Below, piece after piece: positions 6,856 through 49,548 of a stretch of 64,000 bases of DNA. The notes under the pieces were generated by a model. That model searched no databases and was not told where the DNA came from. It saw only the letters and a list, made by a program, of their open reading frames with translations. Position 1 is the stretch's first letter. Each line of letters opens with the position of its first letter. Made by a program: the position numbers and the translations under genes. Origin of the DNA: Halorhabdus sp. BNX81 (GTDB lineage Archaea; Halobacteriota; Halobacteria; Halobacteriales; Haloarculaceae); the NCBI RefSeq assembly GCF_029229925.1, contig NZ_CP107254.1, positions 2,356,001-2,420,000 on the forward strand, in the 5' to 3' direction.

Positions 6856-7713
6856 TCACCCCAGCGCCACGTCCAGATACAACATCACGAGCACGCCGGC
6901 CATCGTCCCGAGCGTCGCGACGCGTTCGTTGCCACGAGTGTGAGTCTCGGGAACGATCTCGTCGCTGATGACGAACACCATCGCACCCGCCGCAAAGCCC
7001 ATCGCGTAGGGAAGGAGAGGGGCAACGACAGTCACGGCGAGTGCGCCGAGAACGGCCAGCGGAATCTCGACGACGCCCGCTCGGATCCCGGCGACGGCGG
7101 CGTAGAGTCGCCGATCGAGACCGGCGTTGATGGCGGCGATCGAGACGGCGAGTCCTTCGGGGATATTCTGGATTCCGATCGCCAGCATGAGCGCCAGGGC
7201 AGCGCCGACGTCACCCGAGCCGAACCCGACGCCGACGGCGAGCCCCTCGGGAATGTTGTGCAGCGTGATCGCGAGGATGAACAGCACGACGCTCGCGACC
7301 CGTGGATCGTCGATCGGAAGCTGCTCGGACTGGCCGGCCGCGTCCGCCCGCTTGCGGCCCGTCAACAGGATGTGGGCGTGGGGGACCAGGGCGTCACCGC
7401 GATCCAACACGAGGACGCCCAGGGCGATCCCGATCAGGACCGGGAGCGGCCGGAGCAACCCGTCGGCGGCGACACCCGGCACCAGGATCTCGGTCGCGTC
7501 GATGCCCGGGACGATCAGGCTGGTGAACGCCGCGGCCATCATCACGCCGGCGGCGAATCCCAGCGCGCCGTCCAGGGCACGTTCGCTCGGATCGCGCCAG
7601 ACCAGGACGAGCGACGCGCCAAGCAGGTTGAGCGCCGCGATGACGACACCGCCGATCAGCGCCTGGACGAGCCGGTTCTCGCCCACGAGATCGACGAAGA
7701 GACCAGTCACCAT
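6856..7713 (-). CDS. ZIP-family divalent metal transporter
   Basis: A 285-residue ZIP (ZupT/GufA-like) transporter with about eight membrane helices. The metal-binding core is visible twice: HNIPEGLAVGVG and QNIPEGLAVSIA. The second has Gln in place of the His seen in ZupT-type members, a variant I believe occurs in the GufA branch. It probably moves zinc, iron or manganese across the cytoplasmic membrane; the substrate cannot be read from sequence. It faces away from the iron-uptake operon on its right by only 124 bp, a suggestive but unproven functional neighbour. Confidence 0.88.
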   Translation of the reverse strand: MVTGLFVDLVGENRLVQALIGGVVIAALNLLGASLVLVWRDPSERALDGALGFAAGVMMAAAFTSLIVPGIDATEILVPGVAADGLLRPLPVLIGIALGVLVLDRGDALVPHAHILLTGRKRADAAGQSEQLPIDDPRVASVVLFILAITLHNIPEGLAVGVGFGSGDVGAALALMLAIGIQNIPEGLAVSIAAINAGLDRRLYAAVAGIRAGVVEIPLAVLGALAVTVVAPLLPYAMGFAAGAMVFVISDEIVPETHTRGNERVATLGTMAGVLVMLYLDVALG

Positions 7714-7837
7714 CGCCGATCGTTCCCAGGAGTGATCATCGTGTTAGCACTCGTCGGGTCGATATTTGAACCTTGTCCGTCGAGCGGACGTCGCTCCCAG
7801 AGAAGCCTGGACGCGGACAGTTTCGTCGGTTCTGTAA

Positions 7838-8764
7838 TCAGCCGTCACCGTCGTGCAGCGCCCGGAGCGGCGTCACCCGTGGACCGCTGTCGGTCACCGT
7901 GACCCGTGCCTCGACGCCGAACACCTCGGCCAGCAACCCCTCAGTGATCACCGCCTCGGGGGGGCCGCGATCGTAGACCGCCCCGTCCCGCAACGCGACG
8001 ACGTGATCGGCGTACCGGGCCGCCTGCTCGATGTCGTGAAGGACGATCCCGACCGTGACCTCCCGCTCGTCGCGGAGTCGCTCGACGATCCCCATCACCT
8101 CCAGCTGGTGGTGCATATCCAGAAACGTCGTCGGCTCGTCAAGCAGGAGAACGTCGGTCCCCTGGGCCAGCGCCATCGCGATCCAGACGAGTTGTTGCTG
8201 GCCGCCGCTGAGGCTACCGACCTCGCGGTCACGCAGGTGGCCGACCCCCGCCAGGTCGATCGCCTCGTCGATCGCTTCCCTGTCAGCCTCCGTGAGCGAC
8301 TCGAAGAACCCCCGGTGTGGATACCGCCCGTGCCCCACCAGGTCCGCAACCGAGAGGCTGTCGGGTGCGACGTTCTCCTGAGACAGCAGTCCGAGCTTGC
8401 GGGCGAGTTCCTTCGCCTCCAGCGTGTGGACGTCCGTCCCATCGAGCAGAACGGTCCCGTCGTCGATGGAGAGCTGGTCGGCGAGGCCGGAAAGCAGCGT
8501 ACTCTTGCCGCTGCCGTTCGGGCCGATCAGCGCCGTCACCTGCCCGGGCGGGAGTCTGATCGTCACGTCGTCGATCACTGGCTCCTCGCTCCCGGGATAG
8601 CCGGCGACGACGTCCTTGCCGAGGAACTCGCTGGCGTCGGGGGAAGGGTCGCCGTGATCAGCGTCGTTCTCACCGGTGGCGTCCCCGGCAATTTCGCCGG
8701 TGGTTCCGGAGGGTGGCTGTATCGCCTGGCTTCCGCCATCCGTCTGTGGTGTGTCTTCGTCCAT
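7838..8764 (-). CDS. ABC transporter ATPase, iron/siderophore (FecE/FhuC) type
   Basis: A 308-residue ATPase with a low-complexity acidic N-terminal extension of about 45 residues. It has Walker A (GPNGSGKST), signature LSGGQQQ, Walker B (VLLLDEPTTFLD) and the H-loop histidine in VLHDIEQ. It matches the FecE/FhuC/BtuD type that powers uptake of ferric siderophores, haem or cobalamin. The start overlaps the permease stop by 1 nt, showing translational coupling. It is the last gene of a five-gene operon that begins under DtxR-like operators, which favours iron-siderophore over cobalamin as substrate. Confidence 0.9.
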   Translation of the reverse strand: MDEDTPQTDGGSQAIQPPSGTTGEIAGDATGENDADHGDPSPDASEFLGKDVVAGYPGSEEPVIDDVTIRLPPGQVTALIGPNGSGKSTLLSGLADQLSIDDGTVLLDGTDVHTLEAKELARKLGLLSQENVAPDSLSVADLVGHGRYPHRGFFESLTEADREAIDEAIDLAGVGHLRDREVGSLSGGQQQLVWIAMALAQGTDVLLLDEPTTFLDMHHQLEVMGIVERLRDEREVTVGIVLHDIEQAARYADHVVALRDGAVYDRGPPEAVITEGLLAEVFGVEARVTVTDSGPRVTPLRALHDGDG

Positions 8765-9918
8765 CAGATCTCACCCATCGATTCCTGTCTGCGCATCAGA
8801 TACAGAAAATACGGCCCGCCGACGAGCCCGGTCACGATCCCGACAGGGATCTGGACCGGCAGGGCGAGTCTGGCCCCGACATCGGCGGCGACCATCAGCG
8901 CCGGGCCGACGAACAGACAGCCGATCATCAGCTTCCGGTAGTCGCTACCGACGATGTTGCGCACCATGTGCGGGACGATCAACCCGACGAACCCGACGAT
9001 ACCCGCGACGGCGATGCTCGCCGCGGCCGCGAGGACGGCCACGCCCGAGAGCGCAAAGCGGACGCGTTCGACGCGCATGCCCAGCGAACTTGCGGTTCGC
9101 TCGCCGAGCAGGAGGACGTTCAGCTGTCGAGCACTGAGGACGGCAAGTACCAGCGCCAGCACCGACCATGGCAGGACCATCCGGACCTGCTCCCACTCAG
9201 TGCCAGTCAGCGAGCCAGTGATCCACGCGATCGCCGACTGGACGATCCCGAGATCATCAGCGAAGAAGAACATGGCCCGCTGGAGGCTGCCAAAGACCGT
9301 GCTGACGATCACGCCCGCAAGCACCAGCCGGACCGGCGAGGTGCCGTTCTTCCAGGCGATGGCATAGACGATCACGAACGCGAGGACGCCCCCGGCCGCG
9401 GCGAACACCGGCAACAGCATCGACGTGCTGACGTGGAGTTCGGCGACGAGCAACGGGACGACGAACGTCACGCCGGGGATCGCGACGAGCGTCAGGAGGA
9501 TCGCGAGCCCGGCCCCGGAGGACACCCCGAGGATGAACGGGCTCGCGAGTTCGTTGCGCGTCACGGCCTGGAAGATCGCCCCCGAGACGGCCAGATTCAT
9601 CCCGACGAAGACGGCGACGATCACCCGCGGGATCCGCATGTTCCAGACGATCAGGCTCTGGTTCGAGAGTTCGGGAAGTTCGCCACCGAGCAGGAACCCC
9701 TGCCAGGCCTGGAGACTGAACAGCACTTTCGGGTCGGAGACGGCCGCCCAGGCCTCACCCCACGTCATCGCGAAGTCCCCGTAGCGGATCTGGACGAACC
9801 CGGCGACCAGCACCACGACGACGCTCGCGAGACAGAGCGAAAGCAATGCGCTGTCGACGCGATCGAGCCACCCCAAGCGCGAGGCGACCCGGTCGCGCGT
9901 CGTCGGTTCGCCCGCCAT
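8764..9918 (-). CDS. ABC transporter permease, FecCD/BtuC family
   Basis: The permease is 384 residues when started at the ATG complementary to 9916-9918 (MAGEPTTRDR). The open frame continues upstream, but only over antisense of the neighbouring reductase gene. About ten hydrophobic helices are visible, with FecCD hallmarks such as NLAVSGAIFQAVTRNELASP, LASPFILGVSSGAGLAI and GFVGLIVPHMVR. It forms the membrane channel for the iron chelate delivered by the two binding proteins. It starts 2 nt after the reductase stop and overlaps the ATPase start. Confidence 0.9.
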   Translation of the reverse strand: MAGEPTTRDRVASRLGWLDRVDSALLSLCLASVVVVLVAGFVQIRYGDFAMTWGEAWAAVSDPKVLFSLQAWQGFLLGGELPELSNQSLIVWNMRIPRVIVAVFVGMNLAVSGAIFQAVTRNELASPFILGVSSGAGLAILLTLVAIPGVTFVVPLLVAELHVSTSMLLPVFAAAGGVLAFVIVYAIAWKNGTSPVRLVLAGVIVSTVFGSLQRAMFFFADDLGIVQSAIAWITGSLTGTEWEQVRMVLPWSVLALVLAVLSARQLNVLLLGERTASSLGMRVERVRFALSGVAVLAAAASIAVAGIVGFVGLIVPHMVRNIVGSDYRKLMIGCLFVGPALMVAADVGARLALPVQIPVGIVTGLVGGPYFLYLMRRQESMGEI

Positions 9919-9920
9919 GG

Positions 9921-10940
9921 TCAGGTGTCCACCTCCAGGGTGTCCCGGTCGGCCGCGATCTCCGCGGCGCGTTCGAGGACGAGTTCGTCCTCGAGGTGCT
10001 CGAGCAATCGCCGCTGGCCGCGGTCGGCCGTCGATTCGATCTCCGCCTCGGAGCGATACGCCGCGAGTCGACGGTCGATCTCCCGTTCGCGGAGTGCGAC
10101 GTAGCGGCGGCGATCCACCTCGCGATCGGCGGGCCACCGGTCGGCGAACACCCCTCGCCAGGTCTCGCGCTCGCCCCACTTGTCTTCGCGCGATGACTCG
10201 GGGCGGACCCAGTCGTAGTAGGGGGCGAGCGCGGGCGGGTACCCCTGATCGCAGCGGACGGCCTCGACGACTTCGATCCCGACACGCGCGCCGCGACCGG
10301 CGGCCACGATCGCCTGTCGATCCGCCGCTCTCGAGGGCGAGGCGATATATAGGCCGTCGACGGGTGTCCCGCCGTCACGATCGGGATACGAGCGGTCGAG
10401 TCTGGTCCGGCCGTCGGCCCCGTCGAGCGTCTCGAAGGCGTCGTCTTCCAGAACAGGCCGGAGATATTCCCCGCCGTAGCGCGTCGCCGCGACGACCCGG
10501 TCGGCGGTGTGGGTGTTTCCAGCCGCCGTCTCGACGACGAATCCGGAGTCATCCGAGCGGTGTTCGACACGTTCGTCCGGGCGATCGATCCGTTCGACCA
10601 GTTCCGGGACGACATCACAGCCGGCTTCGGTGGCGTGGTCCTCGAACAGTGTCGACAGTGTCTCCACGCCGATGCTGACCGGGAATCCGGGGTAGTTCTC
10701 GACGACGGCGCACTGCTGGAGGGATGAGCGCCCGCGGTCGCAGACGAGCGTGTCCAGCCCGTACCGGGCCGTGAACACGCCAGCCGAACAGCCGGCAGGG
10801 CCGCCGCCGACGACGATTACGTCGTAGTCGGTGGCCGCCGTGCCACCTTCTCCGCCGTGACCGGCGCTCGTCGTGTTCGTGTGCCCGCGCCCGTCACGTT
10901 CGGTACTCGTCGCGTGACTCGATTCCTCGTGGTCGGTCAT
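9921..10940 (-). CDS. FAD-dependent oxidoreductase within the siderophore uptake operon
   Basis: A 339-residue protein when started at MTDHEESSHA. After a His/Gly/Ser-rich hydrophilic leader of about 35 residues comes a dinucleotide-binding motif (VVGGGPAGCSAGVF), as in thioredoxin-reductase-like flavoproteins. The CxxC redox pair of true thioredoxin reductase is absent. The C-terminal third is highly charged and helical, with no family I recognise. Its position between binding-protein and permease genes suggests reduction or modification of the imported ferric chelate. That role is inference from context; it could equally be a siderophore-tailoring enzyme. Confidence 0.75.
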   Translation of the reverse strand: MTDHEESSHATSTERDGRGHTNTTSAGHGGEGGTAATDYDVIVVGGGPAGCSAGVFTARYGLDTLVCDRGRSSLQQCAVVENYPGFPVSIGVETLSTLFEDHATEAGCDVVPELVERIDRPDERVEHRSDDSGFVVETAAGNTHTADRVVAATRYGGEYLRPVLEDDAFETLDGADGRTRLDRSYPDRDGGTPVDGLYIASPSRAADRQAIVAAGRGARVGIEVVEAVRCDQGYPPALAPYYDWVRPESSREDKWGERETWRGVFADRWPADREVDRRRYVALREREIDRRLAAYRSEAEIESTADRGQRRLLEHLEDELVLERAAEIAADRDTLEVDT

Positions 10941-18777: not shown

Positions 18778-18870
18778 CATCCCGGACAATGTCCGAGACG
18801 GGGAGTAAGATGTTCACACGGTCTCACGGATCACAGAACAATTACACCACCGTATCCACAGACTAGGGCA

Positions 18871-20022
18871 ATGGCAAAACAGCGGGCCGACGCCGCCGTC
18901 GCGAGGGCGCTCGGTTCGATCTCGCCGTGGGGCGTTCGCCTCGCCTGTGGTGGCGTTATCGCGGCGGCAGGACTGGCGGGCATTCTCGTCCCGCTGGTCC
19001 GTCTGTTCGCCACGCCCGGCGGTGTTTCCGGTCCGGTCGCGGGTGTGCTCGTCCCGGCCGTGTTCGGTCTTGTCGTTCTCGCCAGTGGCTACTGGCTCGG
19101 GGGGAGCGACCTCGACGGATCGCTGGCTGCTGCGGTCATGGTATGGTGGTTCCTGGGGACTGCCTTCGGTGCGTTCACGGCACTCGGCCTCGTCGGCTAT
19201 CAGATGGCGGCGGGCCTCGGTGTGGCCGACGCGGCGATCGTGCTCAGCGGGATCGCCTCTATCGGCGGCGTCGGTGGCCTGCTCGTCGGTCACTACGACG
19301 CCCGGAGTCAGCGTCGCCGACGCGAACTCGAACGCGAACACGAGCGGCTCGCCGACGAACGCCAGAAGCTCGCGCTCCTCAACCGGATCGTCCGCCACGA
19401 CATCGGCAACGACCTCCAGATCATCAGCGGCATGAGCAGCCACCTCGAAGCGTACGTCGATCCCGATGGCCGTGAGCATCTCGATCGGGTACAGCGAACC
19501 ACGGAAGAGGCCATCCAGTTGACCGAACAGGTTCGGGCGTTCGTGGCGTCGCTCGACGAGAACGAACCTTCCGAACGCCGCCGAATCTCCCTCAAGCGCG
19601 TGCTTGACACCCAGATCGAAAACACCCGGGAAGTCTACCGGGAAGCGACAGTCACCCTTGCGGGCGAGGTTCCGGACGTCGCGATCCACGCCGACGAACT
19701 CCTCTCGACGCTCTTTCACAATCTGCTCTCGAACGCAGTCGAACACAACGACCGGGACAGTCCGTCCGTCGAACTGTCGGTCGAACGCGACGCCGAAACG
19801 GTCGCCGTCTCGGTGGCCGACGACGGCCCGGGCATCCCCACCCAGGAGCGTGAGCGCCTCCAGGCCGTCGACACCAGTCCGGATCCAGCAGGCGAGTCAG
19901 GGCTCGGGTTGTACATCGTCGGCATGCTCGTCGATCGCTACGGCGGGACGATCGCGATCGACGACCGGGAGTCCCGTGGGACGGTTGTCACGGTCAACCT
20001 GCCGATCGCCGACGGCGAATAG
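18871..20022 (+). CDS. Membrane sensor histidine kinase with four N-terminal helices
   Basis: A 383-residue kinase. Four membrane helices at about 24-46, 53-75, 85-108 and 118-140 form the sensor. A charged coiled-coil linker (145-170) follows, then the H-box with H176 in IVRHDIGND. The N-box is LLSNAVEHND, G1 is DDGPGIPT and G2 ESGLGLYIV. No extracellular loop is long enough for a classic binding domain, so it may sense membrane state or an ion. There is no adjacent response regulator. Confidence 0.87.
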   Translation: MAKQRADAAVARALGSISPWGVRLACGGVIAAAGLAGILVPLVRLFATPGGVSGPVAGVLVPAVFGLVVLASGYWLGGSDLDGSLAAAVMVWWFLGTAFGAFTALGLVGYQMAAGLGVADAAIVLSGIASIGGVGGLLVGHYDARSQRRRRELEREHERLADERQKLALLNRIVRHDIGNDLQIISGMSSHLEAYVDPDGREHLDRVQRTTEEAIQLTEQVRAFVASLDENEPSERRRISLKRVLDTQIENTREVYREATVTLAGEVPDVAIHADELLSTLFHNLLSNAVEHNDRDSPSVELSVERDAETVAVSVADDGPGIPTQERERLQAVDTSPDPAGESGLGLYIVGMLVDRYGGTIAIDDRESRGTVVTVNLPIADGE

Positions 20023-36916: not shown

Positions 36917-39900
36917 TCAGGTCGTCCGGAGATGGTCGGTACGGGGTTCGTACACCTCGCCTTGCTGTTTGAGCTTCTCGATCTCGTGTTCGGCCTTTGA
37001 GGCCTCCATCCCGACCTCCTCGGCGCGCTCGATCACCACGTCGACGGGTGCGCCCTCGTCGTACTCTTCCTCGATATCGGCGATGATCCCGCGGATGTTC
37101 TTGATCCGATCGCGCTGTGACTTGGAGGTGCCCGTCTCGACCACGTCAGCGTCGAGTTCGCCCGTCTCCGGGTCGATCCCGATGTCCTCCAGCGACGAGC
37201 GGACGATCCCGATGACGCGTTCGGCGTCTTCCTCCTCGACGGTATCCGAGAGTCGCACCCTGGCGCTTGCCTCGGCGAGCCGCACTAGCGCCTCGAGTTT
37301 CCGGGCCGTGACGGGCACCGGCGCGTCCTCGCCCGAGCCCTTCGTCCGCAACTCGACGTAGAAGTCCCGGATCGCGGCTTTGGCCTCCTCGGTCATCGTC
37401 GGGAAGCAGTCCCGCTTGGCGAAGGCGACGTACTTCCGGAGGAGTTCGGGGTCGATCTCCGGGGCGACCGTGTCGGTGACGTTCGCGACCTCCTCGGCGC
37501 TGTAGTCCGAGGTACTGTTTTGCTCACGGTGGGTGTTGAGTTCACCCGCGTAGTTCGTCCGGAGGATGTGCTCGGCCAGTTCGGCGTCCGCCTCCTCGTC
37601 GGGCTCGTCGGTGACGGTGAAGATGAGGTCGAACCGGGAGATGAGTGCCGGCTCGAGGTCGATCTGCTCGCCGATCGGCTCGTACTGGTCGAAGCGGCCA
37701 TACTTGGGGTTTGCCGCCCCGAGCAACGAACAGCGGGATTTGAGTGTGGCGTTTATTCCAGCCTTGGAGATGCTAATACTTTGTTGTTCGAGGGCTTCGT
37801 GCATCGCCGAACGATCTTCGGAATTATGAACGACCATTCCGTTGGCGAGGAAATTGTGGGTGCCTTCGACAGTCAGGTCGTACACTGAATCGTAGTCGTG
37901 GTCCGGGACGCTCTCGACGTGTTCCACCGTTCGAAGCCCGATATCGCCGAGTCTGGATTCCGCCGGGCCAAGGCGATCGGATGAGGTGTCGATTTGGGCT
38001 ATTCCACCGTCAGTTGCCATCTCTGAGCCTTCCGGGACGAAAACGAGATCGCCCGGTTGCAGGTCTTCGGCAGGTGTCTCGACTCTCCCGCGGGCCTGTT
38101 CGATGAAGAACGGATGATCCGGCGTGACAGTCACTTCTTCGCCAGTCGAGAGCGTCACCTCGTGGAGTGTCTCGGGTGCGTCGTACTCGTGGATGGCCGT
38201 CACCGGGCGTTTCGTCAGCGTATTATCGTCGGTCATCGTCCACACGTCGAGATCGACATCCCGTATCGTGCGCCCGTTCGGGAGTTCCTCGATGGAGCCC
38301 GCTTCGGCAGCCTCGATAGCCAGTTCGCGTATTCGTCGTTGTCCATCACCCGTCTGCACGAGAGTATTTCCGATCACACAGCGCATCTTGTCTAACTCGT
38401 CCACTGCCGCGATCCCGCGATCGGCCAGCACCAGTGCGCCGGCTTCGAGCGTCCACTGTTGGCCGTCCCCGAAGTCGTCCCTCACAGCCGCAGCGGTGTT
38501 GTGCGTGACCAGTCCGTTGCCGAGGAAGTTGTGCGTCTCCGGGACGGTCAGGTCGAAGACTTCCTTCTCGCCCGTGTCGACGGCGGCGACGACCTCCTCC
38601 CACCGGAGATCGGCCTCGACGGCCTCCTCGACGAGCGGTTCGACCGGCCCGAGATCGATGTCCGCGAGCATCGATCTGGCGCGAGCCCGGCCCGGGTTGT
38701 CGCCGCGGTTGACGTTCTGATAGTAGTCGCCGGCAACACCGTCGACGGCGGCGAGCGCCGACCCAACCGGAATCTTCTCGCGCTGGCGTCGCTCCTCACG
38801 GACGATCTCCTCGAGAGCGGTCTGTTTCTCCACACTCTCGAAGCCGATCGCCTCGGCGTAGTTGTCGATCTCCGCACCGTACAGCTCCAGGAAGTACTGG
38901 ACGTGGCCGGATTCGATCTCGTGGCCGTTGGCCAACTCGGACGTTCCGCGTCGATCGCGCTCCCGGTTTCGAGCCTTCACACTGTAGGACTCCAGCATGA
39001 GCTGGACCTGCTCGGCCAGCGTCTCGCTGATCGTCGACAACAGGACGCTCGACCCACCGTTCTCCCCGCGCACCGAGACCGAACCGTCGGCGTCCATCAA
39101 CCCGCGGAGGAACGCGTCTCCGTGTTCCGCGACGGTGAGTTCAGGAGCGAGTGCGAGGTCTTTTTTCGGACTCTCCATGCCGGCGTTTTCGAACAGTCGA
39201 GCAATCGTGACGCTGTTGACCCGAATGCAGGGCACGCGATCGTCCTGGCGTTCGATCGCCGGCCGCTTGTCGAACTTCGCTTCGAAGATGTCGGCCGCTC
39301 GTTCGAGCAGCGCCTCGTTTCCGTTGGAGATCCGAACCATCCCGCGATTCCCGTCGCGGCGGTCCAGTGAGATGTCGCCGTCGCCGAAGACGAGCCCGAG
39401 CAGGTACATGAGGTCCGCGTCGAAGGTCTCCGGGATCGTGATGCTGTCGCCGTGCCGGACCATCAGGCGCTCGAAGTCGACGGCCGACCGTGTCGCGTCG
39501 ATGGCCTCGAGCATTCGATCGAGTTTCTCCAGCGGAACGTGGCGGTTCTTCAGGTGAGCGTAGATGAAGTCCTCTGAGAGATCCAGGGCGTCGGCCGCAT
39601 CCCGGAGGGTGCCGAATTCCTCGGTGAGTTCCGTCCGGAGGAACTCGATGGACTCCTCTGTAAGCCTCACTTTCTCCGTCGAAAGCGTCAAGAAATCCCG
39701 GACCTCGACTGCGGAGCGATCGAGGTCTGCAAAGCGCGGTGCGGCGATGAAATCGCCGGCCTCGACATCCGAGATTTCGGTCCACTCGATCCCCTCGCTC
39801 CCGCAGGTCAACACCGGCGTGTTCACCGAGGCTTCGAGTTCTTTGCCGTACTCGGTCTCGATCCGGCGGGTCGGCTTCTCGGGCATCCGCCAGACGTGAC

Positions 39901-42727
39901 TCGACGTCCGGGCATCCATCTCGCCGTCGTCTCTGTCGAACGTCTGGACGTCGATCGCTCGCTCGGCAGCCGTTTCGGTGGCGACTGGTTCCGGGAGTTC
40001 CTGCGTCACGACGTCCCGAATCTGTCTGAATCCGTCCTCGGTCTGGATCCGGGTGTCTCCAGTGACGCACAACCCTGCCGAACTGGATCCCTTCCCCGAG
40101 GTGAAAACTGATCGTGGTGCGATATGTCGGATATACTGGAGAATCTGTGAATTGTGAGAGACGACACCGTTGGAAACGTAGCTGTGGGTCCCCTCAACTT
40201 CGAGGTCGTACACCCACTCATCGTCGGGTTCGACCGTTTCGATCGAGGAGATGCGATCCCAGCGAACGTCGTTCGTCGCGAGATCGCCCAATCGGTCGAC
40301 AGTGGGTTCGACGGCGAGTGCCTCCTCGAGTCGGTCGCTGACGACCCCGCTGGCGGCGACTGTCTCACCGCCGTCGGGTGCGACCGCGTTGCGCTCGTAG
40401 TAGCTGATCGCCGTCTGGGTGACGTCCATCCCATCGGCGAGCGATTGCTGTGAGATCCCGAGTTCGTCCCGCAGTTCGACGATCGTCTCCCAGTCCTCGC
40501 CAGCCAGCCCGTCGCGCTGGTCTTTCAGCCACGCGAGTCGCTCCTCGAACGCATCGACGACGGCGCGGAGCGATTCGCGACTCGGGTTTCGGTCGCCGCG
40601 CTCGTAATGCTGGTAGGTGGTTCTGGGAACGCCGCAATCTGTTTGTGTGAGCGCGAGAGCTTCACGGACTTCACGTAGCGTTTCCGAAAGGCCTGGAATG
40701 ACGTCTGTATTCGTGTTCGATGGTGTGTCTGTGAACGCACGTGACGCCGTTGCTTTTCGGTCGGTAACAAATCCGATTCGATCCACGTACGTGCGGAAAT
40801 CAGTCCCACTGATCCGAAGACGGTAACTTCCGTTCTGTCGGGATTCGAGATGTGCGTTGATGCCGAACGCGAGAAGGAGCGCTTGGACACCGTCTAGCAG
40901 TTCCCGACTCATTGAGGCGACAGCGATTTCACGCTCCTTCGGTGAGACGGTCCCTTCGCTGTCGACGTATGCGCGCAAGAACGCCCGCTTGTTTTCGAGA
41001 GATGCACGGAAGAGAGGATCCGGAACGCGCTGTTCGGCGGATCGTTCGTGGATAGCCGGTTCGAGTTCGTGGAGGAAATCGACGAACTCAACGGATGAAC
41101 ATGTGACGATATCGACGGAATCACGGGTGTGATGTGCACGTCTCGTGGTCCGCAACCCCAACGACTCACAACAGGCAGACACGTCCTCGAGGATTTCTTC
41201 GTCGGCATTCGTGACGACGACCGATCCGTTAGATTCGCTATCAGTCACGTGTCCTTCCGCGATTATGTACCCGAGTAAGCGCGAAAGACGTGGTGTGATC
41301 TCGGACGGTGTCTCGAGGTGATTCGCCAGATCTCGATCGACCGTATAATGTGATATCGATAGTCGATCGTCTCCACTCTCAGCTAACCGACGAGGGGCCG
41401 CAAGAAAGTCCCCCTCAGCCAACGTTTCTGCCGTGCGGGGTTCGAGACCGAGGCCAGATTGGACAAACAATGGATGAGACGGCGTCACGGTTACTTCACG
41501 ACCGCTTCGACTTCGAATAGTGTACAACTTCTCGGGGGCCTCCCGCTTCCAAACCTTGGTTACTCGCTTTCGCGTGACTGTTCCATCGTGTCCGAGCGTT
41601 TGTACCTGGAAGTCAGTCGTATCGTACCATCCATCGTCAACAGGAACAGGATCGTCGAGATTCGATTCGACGATGTCTCCCAATGCTCGCCGTGTCCCAT
41701 CGGCCAGTGTCACATTAGTGTCATATTTCTGGCACTTACCTGTACCAGGGTCCCCGATTAGAAGCACGTGGAGGTCCCCCCGAATCCGAGACTCGTCAGG
41801 CAGATGTTTTGTCACGCCAGAGAAGAGTTGGAGCGCGATCGCGAGTTTCTCCTGGTCGTAGCCGTAGATCGAGGGCGCGATGGAGTCGGTCATCTGCTCG
41901 TAGATGTCCCGCTCCTCAGAGAGGGCGACAATCTCCTTTTTGTCGTCTTCGTCGATGTCCATCTCCTCGAACTCCTCGTCCTCGATCTCGACGCTGACGC
42001 CGTTCATGTAGACGTCGAACATGGCCGACTTCTCGCGGTCGTTGCCACGCTGATCGAGTTTGAGCACGCCGGTCACCCGGACGTGATCGCCCGCGGTGAC
42101 GTGGCCGGTGATGTCGTCCTCGATGTTGACGTCGATGTTCTGGGGCGTCTCCCCGCCACGCAGCCCTTCCGGGGATTCCTGCACCCGGAGCTTCTGGGCG
42201 TCGATGAACTCCGATTGATCAAAGTTGATCCGGAAGGGCCCCTGGCGTTCACAGCCCTGGCACTCGTGTGGTTCCTGGAAGTCGCCGGTCGATTGGGGGA
42301 TGCGAGTGAGCGTGCCACAGCGCTGGCATTCGAAGGCGGCGTCGGTGATCTTGGGTCTGACCTCGGTGGCCTTCCGGATGATGCCCTGGATGCTGACGAG
42401 TTGGCCGCGGTGGTCGGCTCGAATATCCCGGATGTCCGTGGATTCCGGGAGGTTGGTCATCCGGACGTGAGCCTGGCCGAGCTTCACGTCGATCGGCAGG
42501 TCAAAGAGTCGGAGGGCCTCCTCGGCGTACTCCTGCAACTGGTCGGGTTTGTTGCGGTAGTCCTCCGCCAGGTCGGGGTCGAACCGGTAGAGGTCCTGGT
42601 AGTCGACGAACAGCGACTTCTGGTCGTTGGGGTATTTCTGGGCGAGCTCGCCGATCTCGTTGCGGTAGTAATCGCGATAGAACTCCTCGAAGAGATCGAT
42701 GAACTCCGTGTTCTCCGCGCGAGCCAT
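36917..42727 (-). CDS. mcm: Replicative helicase MCM precursor with three inteins
   Basis: One unbroken frame of 1936 residues starting at MARAENTEF. Removing three inteins leaves 698 residues, the normal haloarchaeal MCM size. The extein has an N-terminal domain with zinc cysteines (CQRC, CQGC), Walker A (GDPGTGK, then S after splicing), Walker B-type AAVDELDKM, the arginine-finger region SRFDLIF and a C-terminal winged helix. Inteins interrupt at GTGK/S, SAGL/T and DKMR/S, all in the AAA+ core, so the helicase is inactive until spliced. The hexameric product unwinds DNA at the replication fork. The neighbouring phaC operon is on the same strand 102 bp away. Confidence 0.95.
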   Translation of the reverse strand: MARAENTEFIDLFEEFYRDYYRNEIGELAQKYPNDQKSLFVDYQDLYRFDPDLAEDYRNKPDQLQEYAEEALRLFDLPIDVKLGQAHVRMTNLPESTDIRDIRADHRGQLVSIQGIIRKATEVRPKITDAAFECQRCGTLTRIPQSTGDFQEPHECQGCERQGPFRINFDQSEFIDAQKLRVQESPEGLRGGETPQNIDVNIEDDITGHVTAGDHVRVTGVLKLDQRGNDREKSAMFDVYMNGVSVEIEDEEFEEMDIDEDDKKEIVALSEERDIYEQMTDSIAPSIYGYDQEKLAIALQLFSGVTKHLPDESRIRGDLHVLLIGDPGTGKCQKYDTNVTLADGTRRALGDIVESNLDDPVPVDDGWYDTTDFQVQTLGHDGTVTRKRVTKVWKREAPEKLYTIRSRSGREVTVTPSHPLFVQSGLGLEPRTAETLAEGDFLAAPRRLAESGDDRLSISHYTVDRDLANHLETPSEITPRLSRLLGYIIAEGHVTDSESNGSVVVTNADEEILEDVSACCESLGLRTTRRAHHTRDSVDIVTCSSVEFVDFLHELEPAIHERSAEQRVPDPLFRASLENKRAFLRAYVDSEGTVSPKEREIAVASMSRELLDGVQALLLAFGINAHLESRQNGSYRLRISGTDFRTYVDRIGFVTDRKATASRAFTDTPSNTNTDVIPGLSETLREVREALALTQTDCGVPRTTYQHYERGDRNPSRESLRAVVDAFEERLAWLKDQRDGLAGEDWETIVELRDELGISQQSLADGMDVTQTAISYYERNAVAPDGGETVAASGVVSDRLEEALAVEPTVDRLGDLATNDVRWDRISSIETVEPDDEWVYDLEVEGTHSYVSNGVVSHNSQILQYIRHIAPRSVFTSGKGSSSAGLCVTGDTRIQTEDGFRQIRDVVTQELPEPVATETAAERAIDVQTFDRDDGEMDARTSSHVWRMPEKPTRRIETEYGKELEASVNTPVLTCGSEGIEWTEISDVEAGDFIAAPRFADLDRSAVEVRDFLTLSTEKVRLTEESIEFLRTELTEEFGTLRDAADALDLSEDFIYAHLKNRHVPLEKLDRMLEAIDATRSAVDFERLMVRHGDSITIPETFDADLMYLLGLVFGDGDISLDRRDGNRGMVRISNGNEALLERAADIFEAKFDKRPAIERQDDRVPCIRVNSVTIARLFENAGMESPKKDLALAPELTVAEHGDAFLRGLMDADGSVSVRGENGGSSVLLSTISETLAEQVQLMLESYSVKARNRERDRRGTSELANGHEIESGHVQYFLELYGAEIDNYAEAIGFESVEKQTALEEIVREERRQREKIPVGSALAAVDGVAGDYYQNVNRGDNPGRARARSMLADIDLGPVEPLVEEAVEADLRWEEVVAAVDTGEKEVFDLTVPETHNFLGNGLVTHNTAAAVRDDFGDGQQWTLEAGALVLADRGIAAVDELDKMRCVIGNTLVQTGDGQRRIRELAIEAAEAGSIEELPNGRTIRDVDLDVWTMTDDNTLTKRPVTAIHEYDAPETLHEVTLSTGEEVTVTPDHPFFIEQARGRVETPAEDLQPGDLVFVPEGSEMATDGGIAQIDTSSDRLGPAESRLGDIGLRTVEHVESVPDHDYDSVYDLTVEGTHNFLANGMVVHNSEDRSAMHEALEQQSISISKAGINATLKSRCSLLGAANPKYGRFDQYEPIGEQIDLEPALISRFDLIFTVTDEPDEEADAELAEHILRTNYAGELNTHREQNSTSDYSAEEVANVTDTVAPEIDPELLRKYVAFAKRDCFPTMTEEAKAAIRDFYVELRTKGSGEDAPVPVTARKLEALVRLAEASARVRLSDTVEEEDAERVIGIVRSSLEDIGIDPETGELDADVVETGTSKSQRDRIKNIRGIIADIEEEYDEGAPVDVVIERAEEVGMEASKAEHEIEKLKQQGEVYEPRTDHLRTT
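37823..38380 (-). other. MCM intein 3, a 186-residue mini-intein
   Basis: The intein lies between DELDKMR and SEDRSAM. It begins CVIGNT, has block B TVTPDHPFF and ends VEGTHNFLANGMVVHN, with +1 Ser. At 186 residues it contains only the splicing (Hint) domain, with no LAGLIDADG motifs, so it cannot home by itself. The short linker at about residues 120-145 (SEMATDGGIAQIDTSSDRLG) marks where an endonuclease may have been lost. Confidence 0.92.
38498..40069 (-). other. MCM intein 2 (524 residues) with LAGLIDADG endonuclease and an atypical block B
   Basis: The intein lies between SSAGL and TAAAV. It starts CVTGDT and ends VPETHNFLGNGLVTHN, with +1 Thr. The endonuclease motifs are LLGLVFGDG and LRGLMDADG. 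Block B reads EASVNTPVLT: the usual His is replaced by Thr, although the DNA reading is unambiguous. An HTH-like LRDAADALDLSEDFIYAHL precedes the endonuclease motifs. The missing His normally assists the N-S acyl shift, so splicing must rely on a compensating residue or be slow. Confidence 0.9.
40151..41734 (-). other. MCM intein 1 (528 residues) with LAGLIDADG endonuclease and HTH segments
   Basis: The intein interrupts Walker A between GDPGTGK and SQIL. It begins with Cys, has block B VTPSHPLF and ends VEGTHSYVSNGVVSHN, so it has all splicing residues including the penultimate His and last Asn; the +1 residue is Ser. Two dodecapeptide motifs, LLGYIIAEG and LRAYVDSEG, mark a homing endonuclease. 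C-terminal to these are two Xre-like HTH segments, ALTQTDCGVPRTTYQHYERG and GISQQSLADGMDVTQTAISY. Much of 40600-41735 is visibly poorer in GC than the extein, which suggests recent arrival. Confidence 0.92.
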
Positions 42728-42829
42728 TATAATAGCCACTGTTGAGCGCACTGCCCCAAGAAGGTTCGCAAACCAGGGTGGAAGTGGACGGACGGCAAAA
42801 ACAAAACGACGGCGGCGACCGACGCGTCC

Positions 42830-45257: not shown

Positions 45258-45548
45258 TTAGTCACTCCGGTTGCGTTTGACCGGGAGGACGACGGCCTGG
45301 ACGATGTCGCCTTCTTCGATGTCCAGCGCCTCGCGCTCGGCATCGGGGATGGAAAGCCGACCGCCGCTCTGCACACGGGTCTTGAACGTCGCCAACTTAC
45401 TCATCGTCCCGATCTGGTTCATGTCCAGTCCGGTCGCGCCCCCACCAGTCATCTGGCGAAGTAGCTCCTGCTGTTGTTCGAGCGCCTTCTCGCTCGCTTC
45501 CGTGAACATCGTCGGCGGCCATGGGAAGCCGTCGTCCTCGTCTGTCAT
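45258..45548 (-). CDS. AbrB/SpoVT-fold PHA regulator-like protein
   Basis: A 96-residue protein. The N-terminal half is a helical PHA-associated segment (TMFTEASEKALEQQQELLRQM). The C-terminal half is a swapped-hairpin AbrB-type domain (TFKTRVQSGGRLSIPDAEREALDIEEGDIV). It heads the pha operon and ends 2 nt before phaP. It corresponds to the position of the PhaR-type regulator in haloarchaeal PHA loci and may repress its own promoter and associate with granules. Confidence 0.82.
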   Translation of the reverse strand: MTDEDDGFPWPPTMFTEASEKALEQQQELLRQMTGGGATGLDMNQIGTMSKLATFKTRVQSGGRLSIPDAEREALDIEEGDIVQAVVLPVKRNRSD

Positions 45549-45584: not shown

Positions 45585-45778
45585 TTTCCTCTCAATACCA
45601 TTGAAAACCATTAGATGGCAGCGAACGCACGACTCGTCCAATAGTGCAGTTGCCACCGGGGGCGATCGGCCGATCACAGTCCTACGGCCCACCACATCCG
45701 GAGTGATACACCGATCGAAGACATCGCCATCCCGGCCCACGCTCCGGAGGCGATCGACCGATGGGGCTGTAATGGCGG

Positions 45779-45803
45779 GAATATACATATCTATAGTATA
45801 TTC
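45779..45803. promoter_or_regulatory. AT-rich inverted repeat
   Basis: GAATATAC (45779-45786) and GTATATTC (45796-45803) are perfect 8-bp arms separated by 9 nt. It has TATA character on both strands and could act as a bidirectional core promoter or operator. It is 285 bp before the receiver gene, so any plus-strand transcript would have a long leader. Confidence 0.45.
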
Positions 45804-46087
45804 AAAATGTATATAATCGTGAACTACTTGGCATTGGATTTCGTTACTGGAAATGGAATTGATACTATGGTGGGTACGAGCCCTGTGTCCTTGGTGGAGG
45901 GGACAACCGATTACAGATCCGTCTCGTGGGCAAAACGGAGCGAAGCAACGCGTGTGGCGTTGGACCGGCCCGGTCAGCACACCCGACCGATCAGACCAGC
46001 AGACGTAGGCAGGCCCGACAGGGAGGACGTGTCTGACCCGGACGGACCAGCACAGACTGGAACCCATTGGGGTTTCCCACGAGAGCA

Positions 46088-46468
46088 ATGGTTGATGCGC
46101 TGATCGTTGAGGACGACGAGACGACCCGGTCGGTCCTGGCCGAGCGGCTAGCATCCGACGGCTTCAAAGCAGTTGCCAGACCGTTCGCCAGTGAGTGTCG
46201 CCAGTTCATCGCGAACAACGGCCCGCCGGAGGTGTTCGTCATCGATGCCGTCCTCCCGCGGGCGGATGGCGTCGCGTTCGGACGAGAACTCGCTGACGGG
46301 TACTCCGGGACCGTTGGGGTGTTTCTGTTCAACTATCGTAGCCGGGTCGATCTGAGCCTGTCAGGACAGGACGCGACTCTCCTGGCAGTGTCTGAGCGCC
46401 CGGGACTGGAAGTCTTTCCATCGGTCGACCCGGAGCGGATCGCCCAGCGAATGTGGAGGTACGTATGA
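46088..46468 (+). CDS. Degenerate response-regulator receiver protein
   Basis: A 126-residue single-domain receiver. The acid pair (IVEDDE, E8-D10) and the phosphoacceptor-position D53 (FVIDAVLP) are present. The switch Thr/Ser after strand 4 is replaced (GVFLFNYRS), and the conserved Lys is absent: K27 is the only lysine in the protein. It may therefore act as a binding module with no ordinary phosphorelay. Its stop overlaps the HEAT gene in ATGA, and the glycosyltransferase follows, so it probably modulates that membrane complex. Confidence 0.82.
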   Translation: MVDALIVEDDETTRSVLAERLASDGFKAVARPFASECRQFIANNGPPEVFVIDAVLPRADGVAFGRELADGYSGTVGVFLFNYRSRVDLSLSGQDATLLAVSERPGLEVFPSVDPERIAQRMWRYV

Positions 46469-47568
46469 TCGAAGGAGCCGTTGCGGACGCATATCGGCTG
46501 TTCGCTGTCCTATCGGCTGCCGGGTTGGTGACGACGGGGACCCTTCTCGTAGCGATCTCGGTGATCCGTCATTACCGGGATCGCTACGTCGAATCCGTGA
46601 TCGGGGACCTCCGGCCGGAAATCGTCGCGCGGGCCACAAGCGACGATCCTGAGTGGGTGCCGTGGATTACCGAGCTCTCGTTTGTCGAGCGATACGTCCT
46701 TCGCAGGGAGACCCGAAAGCAACTGGAGAGCGTCTCAGGGGCCTACCGGGAAAATATTTCGACCCTCGCTGTCGCACTCGATATCGACACTCGAGCCCGC
46801 CGACAGCTTGCCTCCGATAATGAAACGCACCGACATCGCGGACTCGTCACGCTGTTGTTGCTCGACGCCAGGCTTGATGTCGATCGTGCCATAGCCACTG
46901 CCGAGACCCAGTATGAGCGGGCAATAATCGCAAGACATATGCAGGATTCCGGCGATCAGTCCCGTGCGGTTGAACTCCTGGTAGAGCCGGGAGAACCGCT
47001 TCCCGGGTTCGCATTGTACACACTATATCATATCGTCCGTCAGAACCCCGCGACCCTCATCCGTGAGACACCGGCCTGGAAATCATGGGACACCACGCTG
47101 GTCGTCCAACTGCTCTCGATCCTGCGTCGCGTCGAGTGGGTTGAGACACCGGAAGTCACGTCGTGGCTCCGGGTATGCCTGAGCGCCGATTCGCCGGCGA
47201 TCCGGGCTGGGGCCGTCAACGCGTTGGAACCGTACATCTCAGCCACCGGAAGCGTCCCACCCCGTCTCGATATCGACAGCGTGCTCCTCGATCCATCGAT
47301 ACGGGTCCGTGCTGCGGCGTTTCGTCAGCTGTCCGACGTCGATGATCTCCGGACCCAGGAGTTGATTCGTTCGATCGCGGATCGCGAACCGAGCAAAATC
47401 GGACGACACGTCGTGGCCACGGAGCTCGATCGAAACCACCCCGAGACGGACATCCAACCGCCCCGATGGTCGATCAACTGGCGGGCACCCTGGGATCTCG
47501 AATGGGAGAACCAGCCGCTTCTCGCGCCCGAGGAGGGCGAGGCAGAACGGCGGGAGGTCCGAATCTAA
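46465..47568 (+). CDS. Membrane-anchored HEAT-repeat protein
   Basis: A 367-residue protein. One N-terminal membrane helix at about 9-33 (LFAVLSAAGLVTTGTLLVAI) is followed by helical repeats with HEAT-like periodicity (ADSPAIRAGAVNALEPYI; DPSIRVRAAAFRQLSDV) from about 90 to 310 and a Trp/Pro-rich tail. HEAT scaffolds bind partner proteins. It overlaps the receiver gene by 4 nt and the glycosyltransferase gene by 1 nt, which implies a receiver-scaffold-enzyme assembly at the membrane. Codon use is slightly less GC-biased than neighbours. Confidence 0.75.
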   Translation: MIEGAVADAYRLFAVLSAAGLVTTGTLLVAISVIRHYRDRYVESVIGDLRPEIVARATSDDPEWVPWITELSFVERYVLRRETRKQLESVSGAYRENISTLAVALDIDTRARRQLASDNETHRHRGLVTLLLLDARLDVDRAIATAETQYERAIIARHMQDSGDQSRAVELLVEPGEPLPGFALYTLYHIVRQNPATLIRETPAWKSWDTTLVVQLLSILRRVEWVETPEVTSWLRVCLSADSPAIRAGAVNALEPYISATGSVPPRLDIDSVLLDPSIRVRAAAFRQLSDVDDLRTQELIRSIADREPSKIGRHVVATELDRNHPETDIQPPRWSINWRAPWDLEWENQPLLAPEEGEAERREVRI

Positions 47569-48971
47569 TGTGGCTGCTCGATACGTTTCTGCCGGTGATC
47601 GGCATCACGTTTTTGGTGGTGATCTGTGGGTCGTATCTGCTCATCCATCTAGCGGCAGTGATTCGAATGCGAAAGCAAGTAACTGGTCGGGCCTGGGAGC
47701 CGGTCTATGACGTGCTCGAGGATCCACTGGTCCCCGATATCGCCGTCGTCGTTCCGGCGTACAACGAGGAAACCGTGATCGTCGAGAGTGTGCGGTCGTT
47801 CCTGAATCTGAACTACCCGAACTTCGAGATCGTCGTCGTCAACGACGGCTCGACTGATGGGACACTTGCGGTACTCGACGAGGAGTTCTCGCTGACGGAG
47901 TTGGAGGTTCCACCGATGCTGTCGGATGCACCCTGTGAACCAGTCCACGGCGTCTACCAGTCGAACGCCGTCGAGAATTTGCGCGTCGTCGACAAGGAAA
48001 ACGGCGGAAAGGGCGACGCCCACAACGCGGGTATCTGGCTCACGGACAGCGAATTGTTCTGTATCGTCGACGCCGATACGATCATCCAGCCGACCTGCCT
48101 TGCGAACATGGTCCGGCCGTTCCTCGAACATCCGGACGAAATGGTTGCGGTGGGTGGCCCCATCCGCGTCGCCAACGGGTCGACCATCGACGAGGGACTG
48201 ATGACACGGCCACAACTGCCCTCGAACCTGCTGGCGGGCCTCCAGCAAGTCGAGTACATTCGGGCGTTTTACTCCGGTCGACTCGGCCTCGATCAACTCC
48301 GGAGCCTCATTCTTATCTCGGGCGCATTCGGCCTGTTCCGGACCGATCTGGTCCGTGAGATGGGTGGCTACGATGAGGACTCGATCGTCGAGGACATCGA
48401 GTTCACAGTTCGATTACACCGCCACCTGATCGATCGGGATCGCCCCTATCGTGTTGGCTACCTGCTTCACCCGCTCGTCTATACACAAGTGCCTGAGGAC
48501 ATCGCCACACTGGCGAACCAGCGCCGCCGCTGGTTCCGTGGGCTCGTTGAGACGATGGTCAAACATTACGACGCCATGTTCGATCGGCAGTACGGCCGGA
48601 TCGGCATGTTCGCGCTCCCGTTTTTCTGTATCGGTGAGGGGATCGGGCGGATCCTCGAAGCGATCGGATACCTGCTGTTGCCAGTGATGTTGGCCGTCGG
48701 TGTAGTCTCGCTGAAACCCATTTTGTTCGTGTTCGTCGGCACGATGTTTTTCGGTGTGTTGTTGACGTGGATCAGCATCTTCACCGAAGTCTGGAGTTCG
48801 GGACAGTACGGCCATCCCCGACAGGTGCTCAAGCTCATGGGCCTCGCCGTGGTGGAGTTCATCGGCTATCGCCAGTGGCGAACGTTCGTGGCCGTCCAGG
48901 GACTGTTCGAATATGTCCGCGGCGAGAACTCGTGGGGTGAAATGGAACGGTCCACCCTGAACACCGATTGA
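47568..48971 (+). CDS. Processive family 2 glycosyltransferase
   Basis: A 467-residue membrane GT2. A membrane helix at 8-32 precedes the catalytic domain (VVPAYNEETVI, VVNDGSTDGT, DAD at 168-170, EDIEF, QRRRW). Three to four C-terminal helices follow. The D, DxD, ED and QxxRW set is that of processive synthases such as PgaC, hyaluronan or cellulose synthase. It likely polymerises or exports an extracellular polysaccharide. No PilZ domain is present; regulation may come from the HEAT and receiver proteins encoded upstream. Confidence 0.87.
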   Translation: MWLLDTFLPVIGITFLVVICGSYLLIHLAAVIRMRKQVTGRAWEPVYDVLEDPLVPDIAVVVPAYNEETVIVESVRSFLNLNYPNFEIVVVNDGSTDGTLAVLDEEFSLTELEVPPMLSDAPCEPVHGVYQSNAVENLRVVDKENGGKGDAHNAGIWLTDSELFCIVDADTIIQPTCLANMVRPFLEHPDEMVAVGGPIRVANGSTIDEGLMTRPQLPSNLLAGLQQVEYIRAFYSGRLGLDQLRSLILISGAFGLFRTDLVREMGGYDEDSIVEDIEFTVRLHRHLIDRDRPYRVGYLLHPLVYTQVPEDIATLANQRRRWFRGLVETMVKHYDAMFDRQYGRIGMFALPFFCIGEGIGRILEAIGYLLLPVMLAVGVVSLKPILFVFVGTMFFGVLLTWISIFTEVWSSGQYGHPRQVLKLMGLAVVEFIGYRQWRTFVAVQGLFEYVRGENSWGEMERSTLNTD

Positions 48972-49071
48972 GGGCTCGCTTCACGGATCGATACATACGG
49001 CGGTGACCTCCCACGCCGATTCTGTCGATTACCCCACAGTTTTGTATCAGGCCATCGAAACACCAGGCGAA

Positions 49072-49548
49072 ATGAGCGATACACCGGACACAGCACTCGA
49101 AGGCGGTACCGATCTCCCCGAATGGGAGTGGAGTCGAACCGTCGAAAACAGCGACGCCGTCGGCGTCGGCGATACCGTCACCTTCAGCAAAGAGATCACC
49201 GACGACGACGTCACCAGTTTCGCCAGGGCCAGCGGCGACACCAACCCGCTCCACCTTGAGGACGAGTACGCGGCCGAAACGCGGTTCGGCGGCCGAATCG
49301 CCCACGGCATGCTGGTCGGGGGCCTCATCAGCGCTGCACTGGCGCGGTTCCCGGGCACCGTGGTCTACCTCTCCCAGGAGTTCGAATTCAAAGGCCCCGT
49401 GGGGATCGGCGACCGGGCGACCGCCGAAGTCGAAGTCGTCGATACCCTTGATGGCGGGCGGTATCGACTGTCGACGCAGGTTCTCGTCGCGGACGAAGTA
49501 GTCATCGACGGCGAGGCTGTCGTGTTGATCGACGAGGAACCCGCCTGA
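49072..49548 (+). CDS. MaoC/PhaJ-type (R)-specific enoyl-CoA hydratase
   Basis: The protein is 158 residues when started at MSDTPDTALE. The hot-dog hydratase motif is clear: ARASGDTNPLHLEDEYA followed by GGRIAHGMLVGGL, with the catalytic Asp and His. It would hydrate crotonyl-type enoyl-CoA to (R)-3-hydroxyacyl-CoA. A site 3.5 kb from the pha operon suggests it supplies PHA monomers. Confidence 0.87.
   Translation: MSDTPDTALEGGTDLPEWEWSRTVENSDAVGVGDTVTFSKEITDDDVTSFARASGDTNPLHLEDEYAAETRFGGRIAHGMLVGGLISAALARFPGTVVYLSQEFEFKGPVGIGDRATAEVEVVDTLDGGRYRLSTQVLVADEVVIDGEAVVLIDEEPA

Follow-up and report, generated by a model that had tools for sequence, protein, structure and literature searches.

Our preferred reading of the receiver-HEAT-GT2 genes at 46088-48971, to which we assign a probability of about 0.55, is that they represent a divergent copy, probably obtained by lateral transfer, of a conserved haloarchaeal kinase-receiver-HEAT-GT2 system, in which the receiver would be uncoupled or structural and control would be exerted by expression. 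The degenerate receiver is an exception peculiar to this copy and not the logic of the system. The genes are part of a stretch of 64,000 nucleotides from Halorhabdus sp. BNX81, hereafter the window, in which the following features are relevant:

45258..45548, minus strand: AbrB-like gene heading a PHA group (phasin-like, PhaE and PhaC genes after it); left flank, outside the cassette
45621..49030, no strand: inserted segment holding the cassette; homology to congeners ends at about 45620 and restarts at about 49031, boundaries approximate
46088..46468, plus strand: stand-alone receiver gene, 126 aa (ATG 46088, TGA 46468); pseudo-receiver by its predicted residues
46465..47568, plus strand: HEAT-repeat protein gene, 367 aa (ATG 46465, TAA 47568); predicted N-terminal hydrophobic anchor
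47568..48971, plus strand: membrane GT2 synthase gene, 467 aa (ATG 47568, TGA 48971); catalytic motifs kept, no PilZ domain
49003..49548, plus strand: MaoC-like hydratase gene; right flank, outside the cassette

Gene layout and distribution of the cassette

According to the reading frames, all on the plus strand, the receiver and HEAT genes overlap by 4 nt and the HEAT and GT2 genes by 1 nt. The first-pass annotation of this DNA had described three genes with these overlaps, and its coordinates, strand and overlaps all turned out to be correct on re-reading. It had also called the second product a membrane-anchored HEAT protein, which its homologues and one hydrophobic segment support. On its own, the window protein reaches only 19.6 bits against HEAT_2 (cut-off 27.7), and because this score is below the cut-off its HEAT identity is taken from its homologues: HEAT_2 is matched by each of the 19 family members that were aligned, with E values of at most 0.01 and a best one of 1.4e-20. 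Its one hydrophobic segment, residues 13-31, supports an N-terminal membrane anchor. A structure model built from four sequences has a mean pLDDT of 54.7 and is helical-solenoid-like only around residues 165-325.

The third gene encodes a full-length family-2 enzyme with membrane segments at both the N- and the C-terminus. It contains the motifs VNDG, DxD (VDADT) and QxxRW (QRRRW), while its TED motif reads VED, with ED kept and T replaced by V. Motifs and membrane segments fit a predicted GT2 synthase of the processive type. A profile search of the protein gave no PilZ domain, as had been claimed before, and the nearest NCBIfam model is that of PgaC/IcaA (TIGR03937) with 127.6 bits, at an equivalog cut-off of 422.3.

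Of the 391 Halobacteria genomes sampled, 63 have a HEAT homologue, and these represent 24 of 86 genera; within the family, 26 of 146 genomes have one. The haloarchaeal receiver-HEAT-GT2 cassette is defined here by 62 related loci, taken with longer flanks. At all 62 the GT2 gene lies directly downstream of the HEAT gene, and at 60 the receiver gene lies directly upstream. Thus the arrangement is more than chance, and the window copy has the same order on one strand. The first-pass annotation had proposed a search for this order and had named uniqueness to one strain as evidence against its idea; instead, the order is found across Halobacteria, and in a variant form in bacteria. Within 7 kb of 47 of the 62 loci a kinase-profile match occurs. 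Kinases are common in haloarchaea, so that the 32 strong matches among these, many directly adjacent, are better evidence than the total of 47. In addition, a secreted protein of about 720 aa is encoded near 25 of the 62 loci.

Some loci deserve separate mention. At L036:3746-6931 the receiver is fused to an upstream multi-PAS/GAF protein inside the ATPase region of the latter, either as a genuine fusion or as the result of a deletion. At L056, L103 and L115 the GT2 gene is broken or incomplete or the receiver match is missing, and these might be decaying copies. Two genomes carry the HEAT gene twice with equal scores (G012:C2:24153 and 491179; G021:C1:37812 and 3487650), which suggests that the cassette was duplicated recently or that the assembly overlaps. 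On a Halosolutus plasmid (L159) a gene for a sugar-phosphate nucleotidyltransferase and glmS come after the cassette at 7570-10544, which hints at an amino-sugar nucleotide as the possible donor in this case.

Receiver residues, insertion site and origin of the window copy

The receiver of the window scores 28.6 bits against Pfam Response_reg (PF00072), below the gathering cut-off of 30.2. It retains the acidic pair D9/D10, the phosphoacceptor D53 and the Pro. The position of the switch Thr is occupied by Asn in every alignment made. In an ungapped alignment from T to K (...AVSERP vs ...YVSKP), the Lys column holds Arg, followed by an insertion of seven residues, while an alternative alignment places Phe in this column, so that Lys is missing either way. 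The earlier description of a receiver without switch Lys and Thr is therefore accurate. The 60 other receivers, two of which are incomplete at the acidic pair in the alignment, have the phosphoacceptor D in 60/60, the switch T in 52 and S in 8, K in 60/60 and P in 60/60; among the cassettes examined, the loss of switch residues is restricted to the window copy. Pseudo-receivers are defined as lacking at least one of five active-site residues (PMC12632262), and judged by its residues the window receiver is one of them. The switch T and K are the residues which contact the phosphoryl group (PMC12632262). A single-sequence structure prediction of the window receiver gave a mean pLDDT of 40.5 and was set aside.

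The receiver is also unusually divergent. In a regression of receiver identity against GT2 identity for all pairs, its excess divergence amounts to 12.9 points, whereas the other receivers have a spread of 1.96 and the lowest of them lies at -5.0. The HEAT protein of the window is no outlier in the same pairwise comparison, and thus the acceleration is specific to the receiver. The window copy lacks the complete phospho-receiver site found in 60/60 others and also the nearby kinase, which is usual but not universal. No kinase-profile match was obtained within 7 kb of the cassette, and the nearest one in the 64-kb window is at 18778-20019.

The site of the cassette is empty in five congeners, in which the AbrB-like gene and maoC are about 170-190 nt apart; in a sixth congener (G073) the neighborhood is rearranged. 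From the break of homology at about 45620 and its return at about 49031, an insertion of about 3.4 kb follows, which apparently leaves the proximal upstream regions of both neighbors in place. The similarity to relatives does not extend to the left of about 49031, and maoC therefore probably starts at an ATG near 49072. Terminal repeats or a target duplication, as expected for a transposon-borne insertion, did not stand out at the ends of the segment. Elsewhere in the window, a single frame of 1944 aa (36917-42751, minus strand) resembles MCM replicative helicases and, judged from its translation only, seems to be interrupted by three intein-like inserts, one at the GTGK motif, one after SSAGL and one after DELDKM.

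The same genome contains a second receiver-HEAT-GT2 cassette on the opposite strand (G000:C1:71354-74277). Its receiver is complete, and a fourth gene after the GT2 gene (L035:7084-8235) encodes a GAF-HisKA-HATPase histidine kinase. Three tandem genes for the secreted-looking protein of about 720 aa (L035:11391-18427) run divergently from it. This protein, conserved beside many cassettes, has a lipobox and a Tat-like signal, yielded no Pfam family and gave only weak structure matches. Acidic and aromatic residues that are invariant in it hint at an enzyme with the glycan as its substrate, while the label glycosidase-like is a guess. A recent duplication of this second cassette does not explain the window copy, given that the two GT2s are 51% identical and that the window GT2 forms an isolated long branch.

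Base composition sets the window copy apart as well, with a GC3 of 69-76% compared with 78-87% in neighboring genes and 81-86% in the receiver, HEAT and GT2 genes of the second cassette. The samples of the family, the class and the order yielded no ortholog, and the closest GT2 in them is about 51-53% identical. In the tree the window GT2 falls within the haloarchaeal clade, where its branch is very long and its placement unsure. As bacteria fall outside this clade at 100/100, a direct bacterial origin is not favored, with the reservation that long branches are involved. Three other cassettes are carried on haloarchaeal plasmids. The simplest reading is lateral acquisition from an unsampled haloarchaeon.

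Proposed regulation of the synthase

A profile search of the genome revealed neither PilZ nor GGDEF domains, while control genomes gave matches. This argues against c-di-GMP control of the synthase, and control without c-di-GMP is thus plausible. The first-pass annotation had suggested control by protein contacts instead of a second messenger, which remains reasonable in this respect. However, it had seen the degenerate receiver as part of the arrangement, whereas 60/60 other receivers are complete. Together with the kinase near 47/62 loci, this makes the family look like two-component phosphosignaling, and it is best read, as far as sequences tell, as a two-component-controlled GT2 polysaccharide synthase.

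Where the set is complete, a histidine kinase with GAF or PAS domains would phosphorylate the lone receiver. The receiver would then bind to and act on the membrane-anchored HEAT protein, which as a relay would gate the membrane GT2 and thereby the formation of what is probably a polysaccharide. The secreted protein of about 720 aa is a frequent companion of this set. In the window copy, with the phosphoryl-holding residues lost and no kinase nearby, the receiver is most likely a structural or uncoupled subunit, and the synthase would be governed by expression, not by phosphorylation. However, D9, D10 and D53 are kept, which would be needless in a purely structural protein.

Other explanations were considered. 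One might speculate that a non-phosphate input such as a ligand, a partner protein, or redox or salt state shifts the window receiver, which would still regulate HEAT and GT2. This fits the open frames and tight overlaps kept in all three genes, the persistence of the receiver fold signature and acidic pocket, and the frequency of orphan pseudo-receivers in other organisms (PMC12632262). However, such an input is hypothetical, and close orthologs that would reveal selection on the window receiver were not found; we consider a working pseudo-receiver rather unlikely. D53 might also still be phosphorylated, for example by the kinase which the second cassette supplies in the same cell, with altered coupling; this would fit the retention of D9, D10 and D53 and the possible replacement of Lys by Arg. 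Yet with Thr changed to Asn and Lys lost, neither of the two residues in contact with the phosphoryl group is left (PMC12632262), and we regard this as the least probable of the explanations and indeed very improbable.

Alternatively, the cassette could be an acquired passenger in decay, with a drifting receiver and a synthase that is maybe of little use. The receiver is indeed the fastest-changing part of the cassette, the copy lies in an insertion and is without ortholog in the sampled genomes, and an intact second cassette is present. In contrast, all three frames are open, the catalytic motifs of the GT2 are intact, and HEAT and GT2 have diverged in normal proportion, unlike drifting genes. 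Decay is therefore unlikely in our opinion, and we favor the divergent copy with an uncoupled or structural receiver.

Bacterial relatives and known systems

Several bacterial phyla also have HEAT-GT2 pairs, in many cases accompanied by receivers or kinases, and bacterial relatives of the GT2 are often directly preceded by a HEAT gene. The gene order is receiver, receiver, YaiO, HEAT, GT2, Hpt in Mesorhizobium; receiver, TPR, HEAT, GT2, PAS protein in Erythrobacter; and hybrid kinase, receiver, HEAT, GT2 in Christiangramia, while in Deinococcus, Planococcus and Bacteroides a HEAT gene likewise lies directly before the GT2 relative. The archaeal and bacterial GT2s clearly share descent. For the HEAT proteins this is not evident, since the archaeal ones, compared directly as profiles with that of Christiangramia, gave a result that was not significant (probability 2%). 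One further contig, L120, titled Corynebacterium sp. 122RC1 and of questionable origin, holds a GT2 relative followed by a homolog of the secreted protein and preceded by a short gene without HEAT match. It is tempting to assume that, throughout prokaryotes, lone receivers gate GT2 synthases via a membrane HEAT adaptor, and that the window copy is a working archaeal pseudo-receiver in which phosphorylation was swapped for another input; we regard this broader proposal as doubtful.

The first-pass annotation knew of no described archaeal system of this composition, and none was found in the literature we searched, which covered few subscription papers; this holds for the form with separate receiver, HEAT and GT2 genes. 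Public records name the parts by domain only. Receiver-linked archaeal GT2s are a known kind, since REC-GT2 fusions of the MTH_548 type occur in Methanobacteriaceae (PMC5847659), while the separate-gene form with HEAT is widespread in haloarchaea but apparently undescribed. Archaea have many lone receivers, and according to a census most of these lie outside conserved gene neighborhoods (PMC5847659). Through the cassette, some of them acquire a definite neighbor and a testable output, a membrane glycan synthase, without c-di-GMP. A 2025 review was aware of no published functional study of an archaeal pseudo-receiver (PMC12632262). The intact and degenerate versions in one genome offer a natural comparison of what would be phosphorylation-dependent and phosphorylation-blind control.

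Compared with known systems, the Methanobacteriaceae fusions share with the cassette a receiver linked directly to a BcsA-like GT2 (PF13641) in archaea. However, in the MTH_548 type receiver and enzyme form one polypeptide, and no HEAT protein is described, whereas the window cassette has three separate frames with HEAT in between. The bacterial pairs resemble the archaeal set in that HEAT directly precedes a homologous GT2, and those of Mesorhizobium, Erythrobacter and Christiangramia also have receivers or kinases next to them, but the pairs often come with additional outer-membrane or TPR genes, none of which adjoin the archaeal set. The poly-N-acetylglucosamine synthases PgaC/IcaA are membrane GT2s like that of the window, the score of which is far below the cut-off of TIGR03937. 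With BcsA carrying PilZ, the window enzyme has in common the membrane GT2, DxD, (T)ED and QxxRW, and probably post-translational control in the usual form of the system; unlike c-di-GMP-controlled BcsA, it carries no PilZ domain, and its genome has neither PilZ nor GGDEF. Finally, the window receiver is like other pseudo-receivers in its missing active-site residues and in having no partner kinase gene beside it (PMC12632262), many pseudo-receivers of other organisms being orphans, and differs from them by keeping the phosphoacceptor Asp and the acidic pair.
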